From the NCBI GenBank assembly GCA_028817275.1, contig JAPPPZ010000063.1, positions 1-46,589 on the forward strand: 46,589 bases of DNA, in the 5' to 3' direction. The notes below the pieces were generated by a model. That model saw only the letters and a list, made by a program, of their open reading frames with translations. It was not told the DNA's origin and ran no database searches. Positions within the stretch are counted from its first letter, which is position 1. Every line of letters starts with the position of its first letter. Positions 31,890 through 38,065 of the stretch are shown here, in pieces. The position numbers and the translations under genes were made by a program. The DNA is from Gammaproteobacteria bacterium (GTDB taxonomy: Bacteria; Pseudomonadota; Gammaproteobacteria; Arenicellales; Spongiicolonaceae).

Positions 31890-33140
31890 GTGCAGAAATA
31901 TTCCATCTTCGCGCTGGCGCGCAACGCGCTGAGTCGCCACCGCCACTGGCGGCCGGCGTGGCGCAGCCCGCAGCCGAAGCGCGAATACGACGTGGTCATC
32001 GTCGGCGGCGGCGGCCACGGCCTCGCCACCGCCTACTATCTCGCCAGCGTCCACGGCCTCACCAACGTCGCGGTGCTGGAGAAGGGCTGGCTCGGCGGCG
32101 GCAACACCGGCCGCAACACCACCATCGTCCGCTCCAACTACCTGTGGGACGAGGCCGCGATGCTGTATGAAAAATCGCTGCAACTGTGGGAGGGCCTCAG
32201 CAAAGAACTGAACTACAACGTGATGTTCAGCCAGCGCGGCGTGATGAACCTCGGCCACACGCTGCAGGAAATGCGCGACATTGAACGCCGCGTCAACGCC
32301 AACCGCTTAAATGGAATCGACGCCGTGGTGCTGCAGCCCGACGAGATTAAGCGGCGCGTCCCCATCATGAACACCGCGCCTGATGCGCGCTACCCGGTGC
32401 TCGGCGCATCGTTCCAGCCGCGCGGCGGAGTGGCCCGCCACGACGCTGTCGCCTGGGGCTATGCCCGCGCCGCCGACGCGCGCGGCGTGGACATCATCCA
32501 GCAGTGCGAAGTCACCAGCATCCGCCGCGACAACGGCGCCGTTACCGGCGTCGACACCACCCGCGGCTTCATCAAGGCGGCCAAGGTCGGCGTGGTCGCC
32601 GCCGGCCACAGCAGCGTGCTCGCCGCCATGGCCGGCCTGCGCCTGCCGATTGAAAGCCACCCATTGCAGGCGCTGGTGTCGGAGCCGCTGAAGCCGGTGC
32701 TGGACACCGTGGTCATGTCCAACGCGGTGCACGGCTACATCAGCCAGAGCGACAAGGGCGAGTTGGTGATTGGCGCCGGCATCGATTCCTACAACGGCTA
32801 CGGCCAGCGCGGTGGCCTGGACGTGGTGGAGGGCGCGGTCGCCGCCATCGTGGAACTGTTCCCGGTGTTCAGCCGCGTGCGCCAGTTGCGCCAGTGGGGC
32901 GGCATCGTGGACACTTGCCCCGACGCCTGCCCGATCATCGGCACCACCCCGGTGCGCGGCCTGTTCTTCAACTGCGGCTGGGGCACCGGCGGCTTCAAAG
33001 CCACCCCCGGCTCCGGCTGGGTCTTCGCCCACACCATCACCCACGGCGCGCCGCACAAATTGAATGCGGCTTTCTCCCTGGACCGCTTCGTCAGCGGCGC
33101 GCTGATCGACGAGCATGGGGCGGCCGGGGTGGCGCATTGA
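31890..33140 (+). CDS. soxB: Sarcosine oxidase beta subunit SoxB
   Basis: SoxB is the FAD-binding subunit where sarcosine is oxidised in the heterotetrameric enzyme. The 416-residue protein begins with a GTG-encoded start and [16 protein letters not shown], the usual lead of the family. It then has the FAD dinucleotide fold [19 protein letters not shown] and [29 protein letters not shown] contains the histidine (near residue 183) that binds FMN covalently at the alpha-beta interface in known enzymes. [13 protein letters not shown] near the C-terminus is also typical. soxB is normally followed at once by soxD, but here a DNA methyltransferase gene and an unknown gene intervene (33194-34766). 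Confidence 0.96.
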
Positions 33141-33154
33141 TTTTTGACCAAATG

Positions 33155-33184
33155 TTGCGCTCTCGTCCTTCAATCGTCTACAAT
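33155..33184 (+). promoter_or_regulatory. Candidate promoter for the inserted DNA methyltransferase gene
   Basis: TTGCGC (33155-33160) and TACAAT (33179-33184) are separated by 18 bases, with the start codon at 33194. If used, the transcript would have almost no leader. A TTGACC at 33144 is too far from the -10 to pair with it. The match is fair, not strong. Confidence 0.4.
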
Positions 33185-33193
33185 AAAGCCGCC

Positions 33194-34330
33194 ATGTATA
33201 AAGAAATCCAACTCACCCGGGCGAAATCTCTCAGTAAAAAAGAGATTGGTTTGATTGATTCCTTCAATCACCAGTTTCGCAAGCGGGATTTTCACGTCGT
33301 GCCGGATGGGAATTCGGTGCAGATTCTCTTGCGGGAAGTTGACATGCCCCGCTTGAAAAAATCCGTTGAGGAATTGTCCGCCGGGAACGGCTTGCTGACC
33401 GATATTCTCGCCGCTGTGGAGGGCGTTGGGGGTTACGGCATTCGCGGGAAAAAGCGCGATTATGTAAACTACAACAAAGAGCGCAAGGTAAAAAACCGCG
33501 CTGCAAAAGAATTGCAGCGGGGTAAATTTTATTACGCCAAGGATCACGGTTATTCAGCCCGGAATAGCGATGTTCCTGCACGCTATGTGAATAAAATTAT
33601 CTGCGGTGACAGCGCGACGGTGCTGAAAAAACTGCCGGATAACTGTGTGGATTTGATATTCACCTCGCCGCCCTACAATTTCGGCCTGGATTACGCCGCC
33701 GGCGCGGATGATTTTGACTGGCCGGGTTATTTTGACAAACTGTTCGCGGTTTTTGACCAGTGCATCCGCGTTCTCAAGCACGGCGGGCGCATCGTGGTCA
33801 ACATCCAGCCGCTTTACTCGGACTACATCCCCAGCCACCACATCATCAGCAACCACTTCATCAACAAAAAGTTGATCTGGAAGGGCGAAATCCTGTGGGA
33901 GAAGAACAACTACAACTGCAAGTACACCGCCTGGGGCAGTTGGAAAAGCCCGGGCAACCCGTATCTTAAATACACTTGGGAATTCATTGAGATTTTCTGC
34001 AAAGGCGACATCAAGAAACCCGGCCGGCGGGACGACGCCGATATTTCCGCCGAGGAATTCAAGCGGTGGGTGGTGGGCAAATGGAGCATCGCGCCGGAGC
34101 GCAGGATGAAACAGTTCAACCACCCGGCAATGTTCCCCGAATCCCTCGCCCGGCGCGTGCTTAAACTGTTCAGTTTTCGCGGCGATTTCGTCGTAGACCC
34201 GTTCAACGGCGCCGGCACCACCACTTTAGCGGCCGGGCAAAGCGGGAGGAGGTTTCTGGGGATAGACATATCCGAAGAATACTGCCAAACGGCAGAAGAT
34301 CGCCTGTCCCAAAGCGAAATCCGTTTTTGA
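33194..34330 (+). CDS. Site-specific DNA methyltransferase (beta-type order, N4-cytosine or N6-adenine)
   Basis: The 378-residue protein has the catalytic motif IV as FTSPPYNFGLDYA (near residue 157) ahead of the SAM motif I as VDPFNGAGTTTLA (near 334). This is the permuted order of beta-class amino-methyltransferases. SPPY is most common in N4-cytosine enzymes but also occurs in N6-adenine ones, so the target base is open. Residues 1-130 form an extra N-terminal region of unknown fold, rich in Lys and Arg (KKRDYVNYNKERKVKNRAAK), which may help recognise DNA. The gene splits the sox operon and has its own candidate promoter. Its composition is less GC-rich than soxB. No recognisable restriction enzyme is adjacent. 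Confidence 0.9.
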   Translation: MYKEIQLTRAKSLSKKEIGLIDSFNHQFRKRDFHVVPDGNSVQILLREVDMPRLKKSVEELSAGNGLLTDILAAVEGVGGYGIRGKKRDYVNYNKERKVKNRAAKELQRGKFYYAKDHGYSARNSDVPARYVNKIICGDSATVLKKLPDNCVDLIFTSPPYNFGLDYAAGADDFDWPGYFDKLFAVFDQCIRVLKHGGRIVVNIQPLYSDYIPSHHIISNHFINKKLIWKGEILWEKNNYNCKYTAWGSWKSPGNPYLKYTWEFIEIFCKGDIKKPGRRDDADISAEEFKRWVVGKWSIAPERRMKQFNHPAMFPESLARRVLKLFSFRGDFVVDPFNGAGTTTLAAGQSGRRFLGIDISEEYCQTAEDRLSQSEIRF

Positions 34331-34373
34331 TAAAATCGTGTAAACTCATGGCTTTACTATACTGAGGAATACA

Positions 34374-34766
34374 ATGCTGGACCCAAAAAATCCCCAAAGT
34401 ACGCACGGCTACGAGCCCGAAGATTGGCAAAATGCCAAAGTACAGGCGAAAGTCCACTTGGCCAGCGTGGCAAAGCGCCAAGGTTGGGAAACTTATGGTG
34501 GGCTGGTGAAAAAAATTGACGCCATCCGATTTGCACCCAATGACCCTGCGCTGGCCGCTCTGTTAGGTCAAATAAGCAGTGAAGAACATAATGCCGGCCG
34601 AGGCATGCTTACCGCAATTGTGGTGCATAAAGACGGTGACCGGAGACCCGGCAAGGGATTTTATAAACTTGCGCGGTATCTGGGCCTGGATACATCCGAC
34701 AAGGATGCACTTTGGGTTTCCGAAACCGGGAAAGTCTGGAACTATTGGAAAAACCAGAAGGTCTGA
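34374..34766 (+). CDS. Hypothetical protein beside the DNA methyltransferase (130 aa)
   Basis: The product is small, soluble and probably alpha/beta. It contains AIRFAPNDPALAALLGQISS and then EEHNAGRGMLTAIVVHKDGD, with GKGFYKLARYLGL and a Trp-rich end (VWNYWKNQKV). I recall uncharacterised bacterial proteins with a very similar RGML..VVVHK.GD..PG.GF..LA..LG pattern, so it looks like a conserved family, but I know no function. GAGGAA lies just upstream of the ATG and a TATACT (34358-34363) could be a -10, suggesting separate transcription. Possibilities are a partner of the methyltransferase or an unrelated cargo gene. Restriction-enzyme motifs (PD-ExK, HNH) are not visible. Confidence 0.65.
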   Translation: MLDPKNPQSTHGYEPEDWQNAKVQAKVHLASVAKRQGWETYGGLVKKIDAIRFAPNDPALAALLGQISSEEHNAGRGMLTAIVVHKDGDRRPGKGFYKLARYLGLDTSDKDALWVSETGKVWNYWKNQKV

Positions 34767-34775
34767 CAGGCCGAG

Positions 34776-35072
34776 ATGCTCCTAATCCCCTGCCCCTGGT
34801 GCGGCCCCCGTGACCAGTCCGAGTTCTCCTACGGCGGACAGGCGCACATTGTGCGGCCGGCCGAGCCGGCGGCGCTGGGCGATGGCGAGTGGGCCGATTA
34901 TCTTTTTATGCGCGACAACCCCATGGGCGCGCACCGGGAGCAGTGGTGCCACAGCGGCGGCTGCCGGCGGTGGTTTAATGTCAAGCGCGACACCGTCACC
35001 TACCGCATCCTTGCGGTTTACAAAATCGGCGAGAGCGGCGGTGAGGGTGAAGGCGGAGGCGGTGCGCCATGA
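34776..35072 (+). CDS. soxD: Sarcosine oxidase delta subunit SoxD
   Basis: The 98-residue zinc-binding subunit starts MLLIPCPWCGPRDQSEFSYG, with a CxxC pair, and has a second ligand group in QWCHSGGCRRWF. DYLFMRDNPMGAHREQWCH is the standard family core. The last 13 residues (ESGGEGEGGGGAP) are a Gly/Glu tail encoded by a G-rich element. SoxD is needed for assembly of the oxidase tetramer. Its stop overlaps the soxA start (ATGA). It is separated from soxB by the methyltransferase island. Confidence 0.93.
   Translation: MLLIPCPWCGPRDQSEFSYGGQAHIVRPAEPAALGDGEWADYLFMRDNPMGAHREQWCHSGGCRRWFNVKRDTVTYRILAVYKIGESGGEGEGGGGAP
35029..35067 (+). repeat. G-rich Gly/Glu-coding element (soxD tail)
   Basis: The stretch contains GGCGGTGAGGGTGAAGGCGG and encodes GGEGEGGGG at the C-terminus of SoxD. 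Its GGCGGTGAGGGTGAAG core also occurs, on the minus strand, in the NRDE gene at 494-510. Confidence 0.4.
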
Positions 35073-38065
35073 GTTATCCCAGCCAGGGCCGCCGCCTGCC
35101 CGAAGGCGGACTCATAGACCGCGGCTCGCCGCTGCTTTTTCATTTCAACGGCAGGACCTGCAGCGGTTACGCCGGCGATACCCTGGCCTCGGCGCTGCTG
35201 GCCAACGGTGTGACGCTGGTCGGGCGCAGTTTTAAGTACCACCGCCCGCGCGGCATTGTCGGCAGCGGCGCCGAGGAGCCCAACGCCATCGTCCAGGTCG
35301 GTGAGGGCGCGCTGACCGTGCCCAACATGCGCGCCACGCAGACCGAGTTGCACAAAGACCTGGTCGCCGCCAGCGTCAACGCCTGGCCCGGCGTTTCTTT
35401 TGACCTGGCTGCGGCGGCCGGCGGGCTGGCGAAAATTCTGCCGCTGATGCCGGCCGGGTTTTACTACAAAACTTTCATGTGGCCGCAAAGTTTCTGGCGG
35501 CATTATGAGCGCATCATACGCAAAGCGGCCGGCCTCGGCCGCGCGCCCGGGGCGCCGGACCCGCAGCGGCGCGACAAGATTAACATTCACTGCGACGTGC
35601 TGGTGGCCGGCGGCGGGCCGGCCGGGCTGGCCGCCGCGCTGGCCGCCGGGCGCTGCGGGGCGCGGGTGATCCTTGCCGATGAGCAATTTATTTTCGGCGG
35701 CAGTTTGCTGCCCGGCGACGCCGCCATTGACCGCCGCCCGGCGCGCGACTGGGTTGGCCGGGCGGTGGACGAGTTGCGCGCGATGAAGAGGGTGAGGCTT
35801 TTGCCGCGCACCACGGTGTGCGGTTATTTTGACCACAACTTTCTCTCGCTGCTGGAGCGCATGCCCGGGCAACCGCTGGCGGAGCGCCTGTGGAGGGTGA
35901 GGGCGCGGCGCGTGGTGCTGGCCGCCGGCGCCATTGAGCGGCCGCTGGTGTTTCCCAACAACGACCGCCCCGGCGTCATGCTGGCATCGGCGGTTTCGCA
36001 GTATGTCCGCCGCTACGCTGTCCGGCCCGGCACCTGCGGCGCGCTGTTCACCAATAACGACTCCGGCTACACCGCCGTTCTGGATTTGCTCGACAACGGC
36101 ATCAGCGTGGCCGGCGTTGTGGACCCCAGAACCACCGTCCACGGCCCTCTGCCCGGCAGGGTGCGCGAGCGCGGCGTCAAAATCCACACCGGCTGCGTGG
36201 TTACCAACGTCGCCGGCCGCCGGCGCGTACGCGGTGTGCAAGTCATGACACTCAGCCAGGCCGGCAACACCGTCACCGGCAAAGCCGCGACTCTGCAGTG
36301 CGACCTGCTGGCGGTTTCCGGCGGCTGGAGTCCGGCGGTGCATCTGCATGCACAGTCCGGCGCGCGACCGGTGTTTGACGAGTCCAGAGCATGTTTCGTC
36401 CCCGGCGAGTCGGTGCAGGCCGAGCAGTCAGCCGGCGCCGCCAACGGTGTTTTTGATCTCGCCGCCTGCCTTGCCGAGGGCCACGCCGCCGGCGCCGCCG
36501 CCGCCGCTGCTGCAGGCTTCAGCGCCGCCGGTGGCGGCGAGGCGCCATCTGCCGAGCCGGCGGAACAGGCGCCGCTGATGCCGCTGTGGCTGGCGCCGGC
36601 GCCGCCCGGCCACGGCAAGCGGTTCGTGGACTACCAGAACGACACTGACGCCGCCGACCTGCAACTGGCGGTGCGCGAGAATTACCGCGCCATGGAGCAT
36701 GTCAAACGCTACACCGCCCTCGGCTTCGGCACCGACCAGGGCAAACTCGGCAACATCAACGGCATGGCCATCGTCGCCGCCGAGACCGGCGCCGGCATTG
36801 CCGCCACCGGCACCACCACTTTCCGGCCGCCGTATACGCCGCTGGCTTTCGGCGCCCTGGCCGGGCGTGAGCGTGGACAGTTTTTCGACCCGTTGCGCAA
36901 GACCGCGATCCACCAGTGGCACGTGGACCACGGCGCCGAGTTTGAAAATGTCGGGCAGTGGAAGCGGCCGTGGTTCTACCCGCGCCCCGGCGAGCGCATG
37001 GTGGATGCGGTGAACCGCGAGTGCCTGGCCGCGCGCGGCGCCGTTGGCATTCTGGACGCCGGCACCCTCGGCAAGATCGACGTCCGCGGCCCTGACGCCG
37101 CCGAGTTTCTGAACCGCATCTACACCAACGCCTGGGACAAACTGAAGATCGGCGCCTGCCGCTACGGCCTGATGCTGGGCGAGGACGGCATGGTGATGGA
37201 CGACGGCGTCACCGCCCGCATCGCCGAGGACCGTTTCCACATGACCACCACCACCGGCGGCGCGGCGCATGTGCTGGCCTGGATGGAGCGCTGGTTGCAG
37301 ACCGAGTGGCCGCACCTCCGGGTTTTCCTGACCAGCGTCACCGAACGGTGGGCGACGGTGTCGCTGGCCGGGCCGCGCAGCCGGGCGGTGATGGAAACGT
37401 TGTGCGGCGGCATTGACTTCGCCGCCGCCGCGTTTCCGCTGATGGCTTTCCGCGACGGCACTGTTGCCGGCATTGCGGCGCGCGTGTTCCGCATTAGTTT
37501 CAGCGGCGAGTTGTGCTACGAGGTGAACGTGGCCGCCGGCCATGGCCGCGCGCTGTGGGATGCCTGCATGGAGGCCGGAGCAGTGCACGGCATCACGCCC
37601 TACGGCACCGAGACAATGCACGTGCTGCGCGCTGAAAAAGGCTACATCATTGTCGGCCAGGACACCGACGGCTCGGTGACGCCGATGGATTTGGGGATGG
37701 AATGGATACTCTCCAAAAAGAAAGACTTCCTCGGCAAACGCTCCCTGTCGCGCCCCGACTGCGTGCGCAAAGACCGCAAGCAACTGGTCGGACTGCGCAC
37801 CATGGACCCGCAGGAGGTGCTGCCGGAGGGCGCGCAGTTGACCGACTCGCGCATTGTGTCCAGGCCGGCGCCGATGGTCGGCCATGTCACCTCCAGTTAC
37901 TACAGCGCATGCCTCAAACACTCCATCGCCCTGGCGCTGGTCAAGGGCGGCCGCGCGCGCATGGGCGGAACGGTGTACGCGCCGCTGGTGGACGGCCGCA
38001 CCGTCGCCGCCGAGGTGTGCAGTCCGGTGTTTTACGATCCCGAAGGGGCAAAGCAGAATGGCTGA
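35069..38065 (+). CDS. soxA: Sarcosine oxidase alpha subunit SoxA
   Basis: SoxA (998 residues) binds NAD+ and tetrahydrofolate and couples sarcosine oxidation to methylene-THF formation. It has an N-terminal ferredoxin-like domain (SGYAGDTLASALLANGV, SFKYHRPRG), then a nucleotide fold DVLVAGGGPAGLAAALAAG near residues 175-195. A second flavoprotein region includes VVLAAGAIERPLVFPNNDRPGVM. The C-terminal GcvT-like folate domain runs from about residue 640 (GAVGILDAGTLGKIDVRGPD) to the end, with GTETMHVLRAEKGYIIVGQDTDG. A low-complexity Ala/Gly stretch near 470-495 separates the halves. It overlaps soxD by four bases and soxG by eight. Confidence 0.96.
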   Translation: MSYPSQGRRLPEGGLIDRGSPLLFHFNGRTCSGYAGDTLASALLANGVTLVGRSFKYHRPRGIVGSGAEEPNAIVQVGEGALTVPNMRATQTELHKDLVAASVNAWPGVSFDLAAAAGGLAKILPLMPAGFYYKTFMWPQSFWRHYERIIRKAAGLGRAPGAPDPQRRDKINIHCDVLVAGGGPAGLAAALAAGRCGARVILADEQFIFGGSLLPGDAAIDRRPARDWVGRAVDELRAMKRVRLLPRTTVCGYFDHNFLSLLERMPGQPLAERLWRVRARRVVLAAGAIERPLVFPNNDRPGVMLASAVSQYVRRYAVRPGTCGALFTNNDSGYTAVLDLLDNGISVAGVVDPRTTVHGPLPGRVRERGVKIHTGCVVTNVAGRRRVRGVQVMTLSQAGNTVTGKAATLQCDLLAVSGGWSPAVHLHAQSGARPVFDESRACFVPGESVQAEQSAGAANGVFDLAACLAEGHAAGAAAAAAAGFSAAGGGEAPSAEPAEQAPLMPLWLAPAPPGHGKRFVDYQNDTDAADLQLAVRENYRAMEHVKRYTALGFGTDQGKLGNINGMAIVAAETGAGIAATGTTTFRPPYTPLAFGALAGRERGQFFDPLRKTAIHQWHVDHGAEFENVGQWKRPWFYPRPGERMVDAVNRECLAARGAVGILDAGTLGKIDVRGPDAAEFLNRIYTNAWDKLKIGACRYGLMLGEDGMVMDDGVTARIAEDRFHMTTTTGGAAHVLAWMERWLQTEWPHLRVFLTSVTERWATVSLAGPRSRAVMETLCGGIDFAAAAFPLMAFRDGTVAGIAARVFRISFSGELCYEVNVAAGHGRALWDACMEAGAVHGITPYGTETMHVLRAEKGYIIVGQDTDGSVTPMDLGMEWILSKKKDFLGKRSLSRPDCVRKDRKQLVGLRTMDPQEVLPEGAQLTDSRIVSRPAPMVGHVTSSYYSACLKHSIALALVKGGRARMGGTVYAPLVDGRTVAAEVCSPVFYDPEGAKQNG

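Follow-up and report, generated by a model that had tools for sequence, protein, structure and literature searches.

The window, the 46,589-nucleotide stretch of DNA analysed here, carries a sarcosine oxidase (sox) operon with two open reading frames (ORFs) between soxB and soxD, as an earlier note on this DNA had described. All genes of the region are on the plus strand. The left flank is soxB (31890..33140), which encodes the beta subunit of sarcosine oxidase and whose orthologue is 97% identical in the sister genome and 68-81% identical in the 28 other relatives whose locus was fetched. Then come a gene for a beta-class N4-cytosine/N6-adenine DNA methyltransferase of 378 aa (33194..34330), identified by PF01555, PADLOC MTase_II, full-length homologues and dN/dS, and, 43 nt downstream on the same strand, a 130-aa ORF (34374..34766) with homologues in a rare mobile family. 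The stop of the 130-aa gene is separated by 9 nt from soxD (34776..35072), the right flank, identified as an ORF that adjoins soxB in the relatives. The next gene, soxA (35069..38065), recognized as an ORF and by soxA matches in relatives, overlaps the soxD stop.

The insert between soxB and soxD

A soxB search yielded 30 loci, which left 28 relatives for the junction comparison after removal of the source genome (G000; 93% complete, 166 contigs) and its sister (G001; 88% complete). The assumption that soxB is normally contiguous with soxD was borne out: the two genes adjoin in all 28 relatives, with a predicted gap of -1 to 72 nt, vs 1635 nt in the window. The insertion into the sox operon is real. 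The lower GC content attributed to the inserted genes was likewise found (51-52% vs 67-68% for soxB and soxD), with 52.4% in the methyltransferase and 51.5% in the 130-aa gene vs 68.0% in soxB, 67.0% in soxD and 65.1% in the whole window. Third-position GC was 0.68 and 0.53, respectively, vs 0.90 in soxB, 0.80 in soxD and 0.84 in soxA.

In the sister genome (locus L030; MAG PNGst_C_binSS3), the methyltransferase gene likewise follows soxB, at a distance of 54 nt, and is cut by the end of the contig. Since the methyltransferase occupies the same site in both genomes, it was inserted before these species diverged. The 130-aa gene had no match in the sister genome, which is 88% complete and whose contig ends within the methyltransferase, before the place in question.

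The inserted genes had also been credited with promoter-like signals of their own, which a promoter scan of 32900-35200 did not support: it returned a single promoter-like site, on the minus strand, vs 1.2 expected in shuffled sequences, i.e., chance level. A ribosome-site-like GAGGA was seen by eye ahead of the ATG of the 130-aa gene. Searches for flanking repeats that might mark a mobile element returned short or imperfect pairs, none of which bracketed the insert. Because the gap between the 130-aa gene and soxD is only 9 nt and no terminator-like site was found in it, the methyltransferase may well be transcribed together with the sox genes.

The methyltransferase matched Pfam N6_N4_Mtase (PF01555; E 1.7e-38, 133.2 bits vs a cut-off of 26.7) and PADLOC MTase_II (PDLC03353; 4.5e-63). 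Its catalytic motif IV, TSPPYN (residues 157-162; 33662..33679, plus strand), was invariant in a 47-row family alignment, and most residues of the AdoMet-binding motif I, DPFNGAGTT (residues 335-343; 34196..34222, plus strand), read from the translation, were also invariant. With this profile match and both motifs present, the SPPY-type assignment holds. Motif IV stands ahead of motif I, which we take to be the beta-class order, and together with the curated profile match this places the enzyme among the beta-class N4/N6 amino-methyltransferases; the TSPPY form presumably suggests N4-cytosine as the target.

The family was sampled at 97 loci, comprising the best 80 of 203 relatives in genome contigs and 17 in viral contigs. 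The alignment contained 46 of these 97 relatives, picked for full length, and the window enzyme. The 46 full-length homologues were 55-63% identical to the window enzyme, residues 1-130 included, and homologues were spread over many phyla. The N-terminal part of the match was missing in some relatives, mainly viral ones. Cyanophage relatives of the catalytic part were 52-55% identical and annotated as 'restriction enzyme, type II R/M system 1' or similar.

The N-terminal region (residues 1-130; 33194..33583, plus strand) had been called unknown, which is true in that it has no Pfam match up to E=1, yet it is conserved along the methyltransferase family in all 47 rows. The structure prediction proposed for it succeeded in part. 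In an AF2 model of the whole enzyme (mean pLDDT 79.3; poor at residues 163-168, 208-210 and 237-261), residues 1-80 formed a confident beta-alpha-beta-beta-alpha-alpha domain with pLDDT block means of 80-93, whereas residues 81-120 were low (51-76). The best PDB sequence match (1.7e-25) covered residues 132-373. Sequence comparison places the methyltransferase in a widespread family of a known kind.

The 130-aa gene and its pairing with the methyltransferase

The 130-aa protein had no Pfam, NCBIfam or PADLOC match (Pfam and PADLOC up to E=1) and thus belongs to no PADLOC model of a known anti-phage component; one PHROGs match (E=0.19) was not meaningful. Alignment of its family revealed a conserved core, ITYsEL ... 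GRGMLS.xVVHK.GD..PGxGFF, and the protein was 48% identical to a homologue in genome G019. With the own genome counted, homologues were found in 2/41 relatives and 12/369 genomes of the class (E<=0.001) and in 18/398 genomes of the phylum (1e-8), many of those at class and phylum level being remote. Three of 385 genomes in the class of G698, that genome included, carried one (1e-12), as did 4 of 72,556 plasmids (E<=0.01), from Rhizobium, Methylobacterium, Citricoccus and Streptomyces. The single protein used as query retrieved no relative from viral contigs, genome contigs or phage records (0/50,697), and a later profile search placed the family on three viral contigs. By these matches, the 130-aa gene is an accessory gene belonging to a separate, rare and mobile family. 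The literature yielded nothing on BPTD_3080 or on an alkyltransferase-like protein tied to restriction, which does not prove the 130-aa family undescribed.

The neighbourhoods of close homologues of the 130-aa gene were inspected at 16 loci. At six of them, defence-type genes were present among the neighbours picked for scanning or annotated. An AbiU/AIPR gene lies immediately upstream of the homologue in G520, with a 4-nt overlap. In G662, a Z1/MzaC-like gene is adjacent, accompanied by a GHKL ATPase and by a C5-methylase 6 kb off, and G019 has McrBC-like genes and GmrSD nearby. An island common to Rhizobium and G698 contains a type III-like methyltransferase near the homologue, and in Methylobacterium a PbeA-like helicase is located 4 kb away. 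The other ten loci, judged by eye or annotation rather than by systematic scanning, were the three viral contigs, plasmid regions of Citricoccus and Streptomyces, and loci in G599, G767, G363, G1085 and G977. In G977, four tandem genes of the family (L231:6283-7935) lie beside ABC-transporter-like genes, and a homologue of the window methyltransferase with its restriction enzyme is encoded elsewhere on the same contig.

The gene might have been derived from a phage or plasmid as a counter-defence gene and stand beside the methyltransferase by chance. In favour of this are the four plasmids and the tandem copies in G977, together with two of the viral contigs (L194 and L195), on which the homologues lie amid ORFs that by eye resemble phage structural genes; two of these ORFs were scanned and had no Pfam match. 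Several homologues are, however, part of defence clusters in cellular genomes or have other genes around them, and none was found in the 50,697 phage records, and we give this origin a rather low probability.

The fold of the 130-aa protein was approached by model and by profile. The structure prediction that had been recommended gave no usable model (AF2, pLDDT 52.7, 4 sequences). In a profile comparison, the family resembled the DNA-binding domain of O6-alkylguanine-DNA alkyltransferases and alkyltransferase-like proteins (AGT/ATL; PF01035) with a probability of 24-45% over local stretches of 16-41 columns, the 'SYgdiA' segment of that domain aligning with 'ITYsEL'; reversed and unrelated controls reached <=0.3%, and global mode gave 6%. 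PDB profile matches to 1mgt (0.16) and 3gva (1.2) were weak and stood among better-scoring unrelated proteins (myosin light chain, 0.009). AGT/ATL proteins have a PCHR or PWHR motif, whereas the 130-aa translation has neither, nor does it match PF01035 up to E=1, so that it was not assigned to this family; for an AGT/ATL-like winged-helix fold, the profile similarity was weak and local. The alkyltransferase-domain likeness is a lead, not a result. On this weak evidence, the 130-aa protein would most likely bind DNA via a helix-turn-helix-like segment.

Two remote relatives (L019:352-1215 and L003:1291-2214) are similar in their N-terminal part (E 4.2e-6 and 0.0013), and their C-terminal part has a weak likeness, below cut-off, to Tox-REase-9 (6.3e-4 and 0.023). 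Taken together with the neighbourhoods, these would fit DNA-binding modules of an undescribed family, one that is common to unrelated DNA-targeting defence systems (AIPR/AbiU, Z1/Mza-like, McrBC/GmrSD and type III R-M), is carried by viruses and plasmids, and is fused to a nuclease-like C-terminal part in remote relatives; beside an orphan methyltransferase, such a module would steer or read its methylation. We put this forward as a speculative proposal that is doubtful at present.

The earlier note had suggested that the two inserted genes could act together as a compact unit for modification or defence. In that case, the 130-aa protein would be an effector, specificity factor or inhibitor replacing a restriction enzyme, and the 43-nt spacing on one strand and the recurrence of the small family by defence genes (G520, G662, G019, Rhizobium and G698) speak for such an arrangement. 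Against it, the 130-aa gene was present in the fetched DNA of 0/97 other loci of the methyltransferase family (genome loci being the best 80 of 203). Conversely, three methyltransferase queries detected a methyltransferase at 3/16 close-homologue loci (type III-like in Rhizobium and G698, C5 in G662) and none at 13/16, i.e., the survey proposed earlier found homologues of the small gene mostly away from methyltransferases. The adjoining defence genes also vary among loci, save for the island common to Rhizobium and G698. The association of the small family with defence genes thus stands at six of 16 loci, while its pairing with the methyltransferase is not supported; the two genes are probably not one system, and a single unit appears unlikely. 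The 0/97 and 3/16 counts and the difference in third-position GC (0.53 vs 0.68) point to a separate origin of the 130-aa gene, and the most likely history is one of two separate arrivals.

The restriction enzyme and selection on the methyltransferase

Downstream of the methyltransferase, a BLAST-linked cluster of ORFs, mostly 226-266 aa, was present in 27 of 98 sources (the 97 loci and the window), and one member matched PADLOC REase_II (PDLC03499; 2.5e-87). A profile built from 17 cluster members confirmed 25 of the 27 and detected this type II restriction-enzyme family of ~236 aa at 36/80 genome loci (best 80 of 203) and 1/17 viral loci. At 35 of these 36 genome loci, the restriction-enzyme match was found downstream, no more than 0.6 kb from the methyltransferase and in either orientation; at the remaining one (L106), it was ~7 kb upstream. 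The other 44 of the 80 genome loci had no restriction-enzyme match, some being cut by contig ends and some having other neighbours. On one Dehalococcoidia chromosome (contig OY282456.1; L039 and L043), there are two methyltransferase copies, each with a restriction enzyme.

Nothing in the window matched the restriction-enzyme profile. With a second profile, the enzyme was also absent from the matches in the source genome (93% complete) and the sister genome (88%); G977 served as positive control and matched at 4.8e-94, its own sequence being included in the profile. An earlier single-sequence search of the source genome, which had no control, was empty. The searches of both genomes covered the one nuclease family known to accompany the methyltransferase. 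At other loci, the methyltransferase is followed by a 7-member cluster of ORFs (183-246 aa), one member of which had no Pfam, NCBIfam or PADLOC match, and the methyltransferase family may pair with other nucleases too. The source genome, at 93% completeness and in 166 contigs, might still encode a restriction enzyme from a different family or have one in a stretch that the assembly lacks. At two other loci, the region downstream of the methyltransferase contains short ORFs that match the restriction-enzyme profile (L044:9381-9557 and L063:9251-9418); these are perhaps broken copies, hence intermediates of partner loss.

The methyltransferase had been described as solitary, and this agrees with the searches of the window and both genomes. 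As no cognate endonuclease of the known partner family is nearby, the locus does not qualify as a type II R-M system of that kind; an intact, conserved gene with no cognate enzyme found in the incomplete genomes corresponds instead to an orphan type II methyltransferase. On the profile evidence, the enzyme is an orphan with respect to the known restriction-enzyme family, and since that partner is common in the family and was not found in either genome, the orphan would be derived from a type II R-M system.

The methyltransferases of the window and the sister genome (L030) are identical at 257/271 residues, with dN 0.024, dS 0.29 and dN/dS 0.082 over 270 codons (0.126 for residues 1-130 and 0.051 for residues 131-270). 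For comparison, dN/dS in the same genome pair was 0.10 for soxB and 0.073 for glyA. The sister's 271 codons contain no stop codon. The dN/dS of 0.08 indicates that the methyltransferase is under purifying selection. R-M relics are common, and a decaying relic with no present function would agree with the partner not found in either genome and the short ORFs at L044 and L063, but the low dN/dS over 270 codons in both parts of the protein, the lack of a stop codon in the sister and the retained catalytic motifs make it highly improbable here.

We consider it likely that the insert consists of an orphan type II methyltransferase and an independently acquired passenger gene. The methyltransferase would methylate one short DNA motif genome-wide without restriction, probably at N4 of cytosine. 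The gene may be kept for this activity, which most likely shields the genome from restriction enzymes that recognize the same motif and are carried by neighbours or incoming elements, or alternatively serves gene regulation. The 130-aa gene would be a mobile accessory that came to lie next to the methyltransferase rather than its dedicated partner. The methyltransferase seems to have persisted after the loss of its restriction enzyme and to have become part of an unrelated metabolic operon. The 130-aa family is an unannotated set of accessory genes whose members in defence operons merit experimental tests.

Genome setting and comparison with known systems

Each of the two genes is fairly ordinary in kind; the number of methyltransferases in the genome is unusual. 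PF01555 had 28 matches in the source genome (2.0 Mb) and 27 in the sister (1.8 Mb), some of them being pieces of one gene. In 44 other relatives of the order, 0-17 matches were found, with none in 22 of the 44. Besides the window, 25 methyltransferase places of the source genome were fetched, two further matches not being among those listed, and 84 of the 94 neighbour ORFs were scanned, 10 being left out. Among the Pfam matches listed (25 of 63), ResIII was found in three neighbours and RE_Eco29kI in one, the others being mainly metabolic families. The PADLOC matches listed (25 of 38) included six restriction-enzyme models, four of type II and two of type III, each with a single member, perhaps with the same few proteins recurring among them. 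These neighbours suggest that some of the methyltransferases have restriction partners. At 12/25 places, one of 20 fetched stretches of the sister genome matched with 87-95% identity, a match being counted when it covered at least part of the methyltransferase and flanking DNA, or extended up to a contig end. Many of the methyltransferases are thus inherited.

Ten methyltransferases of the source genome form a subfamily with best-paralogue identities of 45-63%, and nine of the ten have a DPPF motif. Apparently solitary methyltransferase genes were seen, mainly by eye, amid metabolic or housekeeping genes (L244:3970-5199, L251:3159-4409 and L243:3562-4893); one example lies between a serC-like and a prephenate-dehydratase-like gene, recalling the sox insert. 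The bacterium probably lives in marine sponges, as judged from the name of the sister MAG and a study whose main text does not name the bin (PMC6742649). An enrichment of R-M genes has been reported for sponge symbionts (PMC5649159, PMC8163846). The wider setting, with 27-28 N4/N6 matches per 1.8-2.0 Mb and several amid metabolic genes, is of more interest than the insert, and whether stacked self-methylation protects such bacteria is a testable question.

In a Foldseek search of the PDB, the first structural match of the methyltransferase model was TTHA0409 of Thermus thermophilus (2zie/2zig; 9.5e-18), followed by the bdelloid N4-cytosine methyltransferase (8s9m-8s9o; 4.5e-16). The matches listed for the whole model gave no sign of a counterpart to residues 1-130 of the methyltransferase. 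The closest system is the type II R-M family that combines PADLOC REase_II (PDLC03499) with an N6_N4-type methyltransferase, to whose members the window enzyme is 55-63% identical over the full length. Many members of that family have the restriction enzyme adjoining, whereas it was not found at the window locus or in the sister. Active orphan methyltransferases were reported in 111/230 organisms (48%) (Blow et al., 2016; PMC4752239). Like the orphan type II enzymes described there, the methyltransferase of the window is solitary and intact, and it is present in both genomes of the genus; it differs from the active orphans of that study in being known from sequence alone and in its position within an unrelated metabolic operon.
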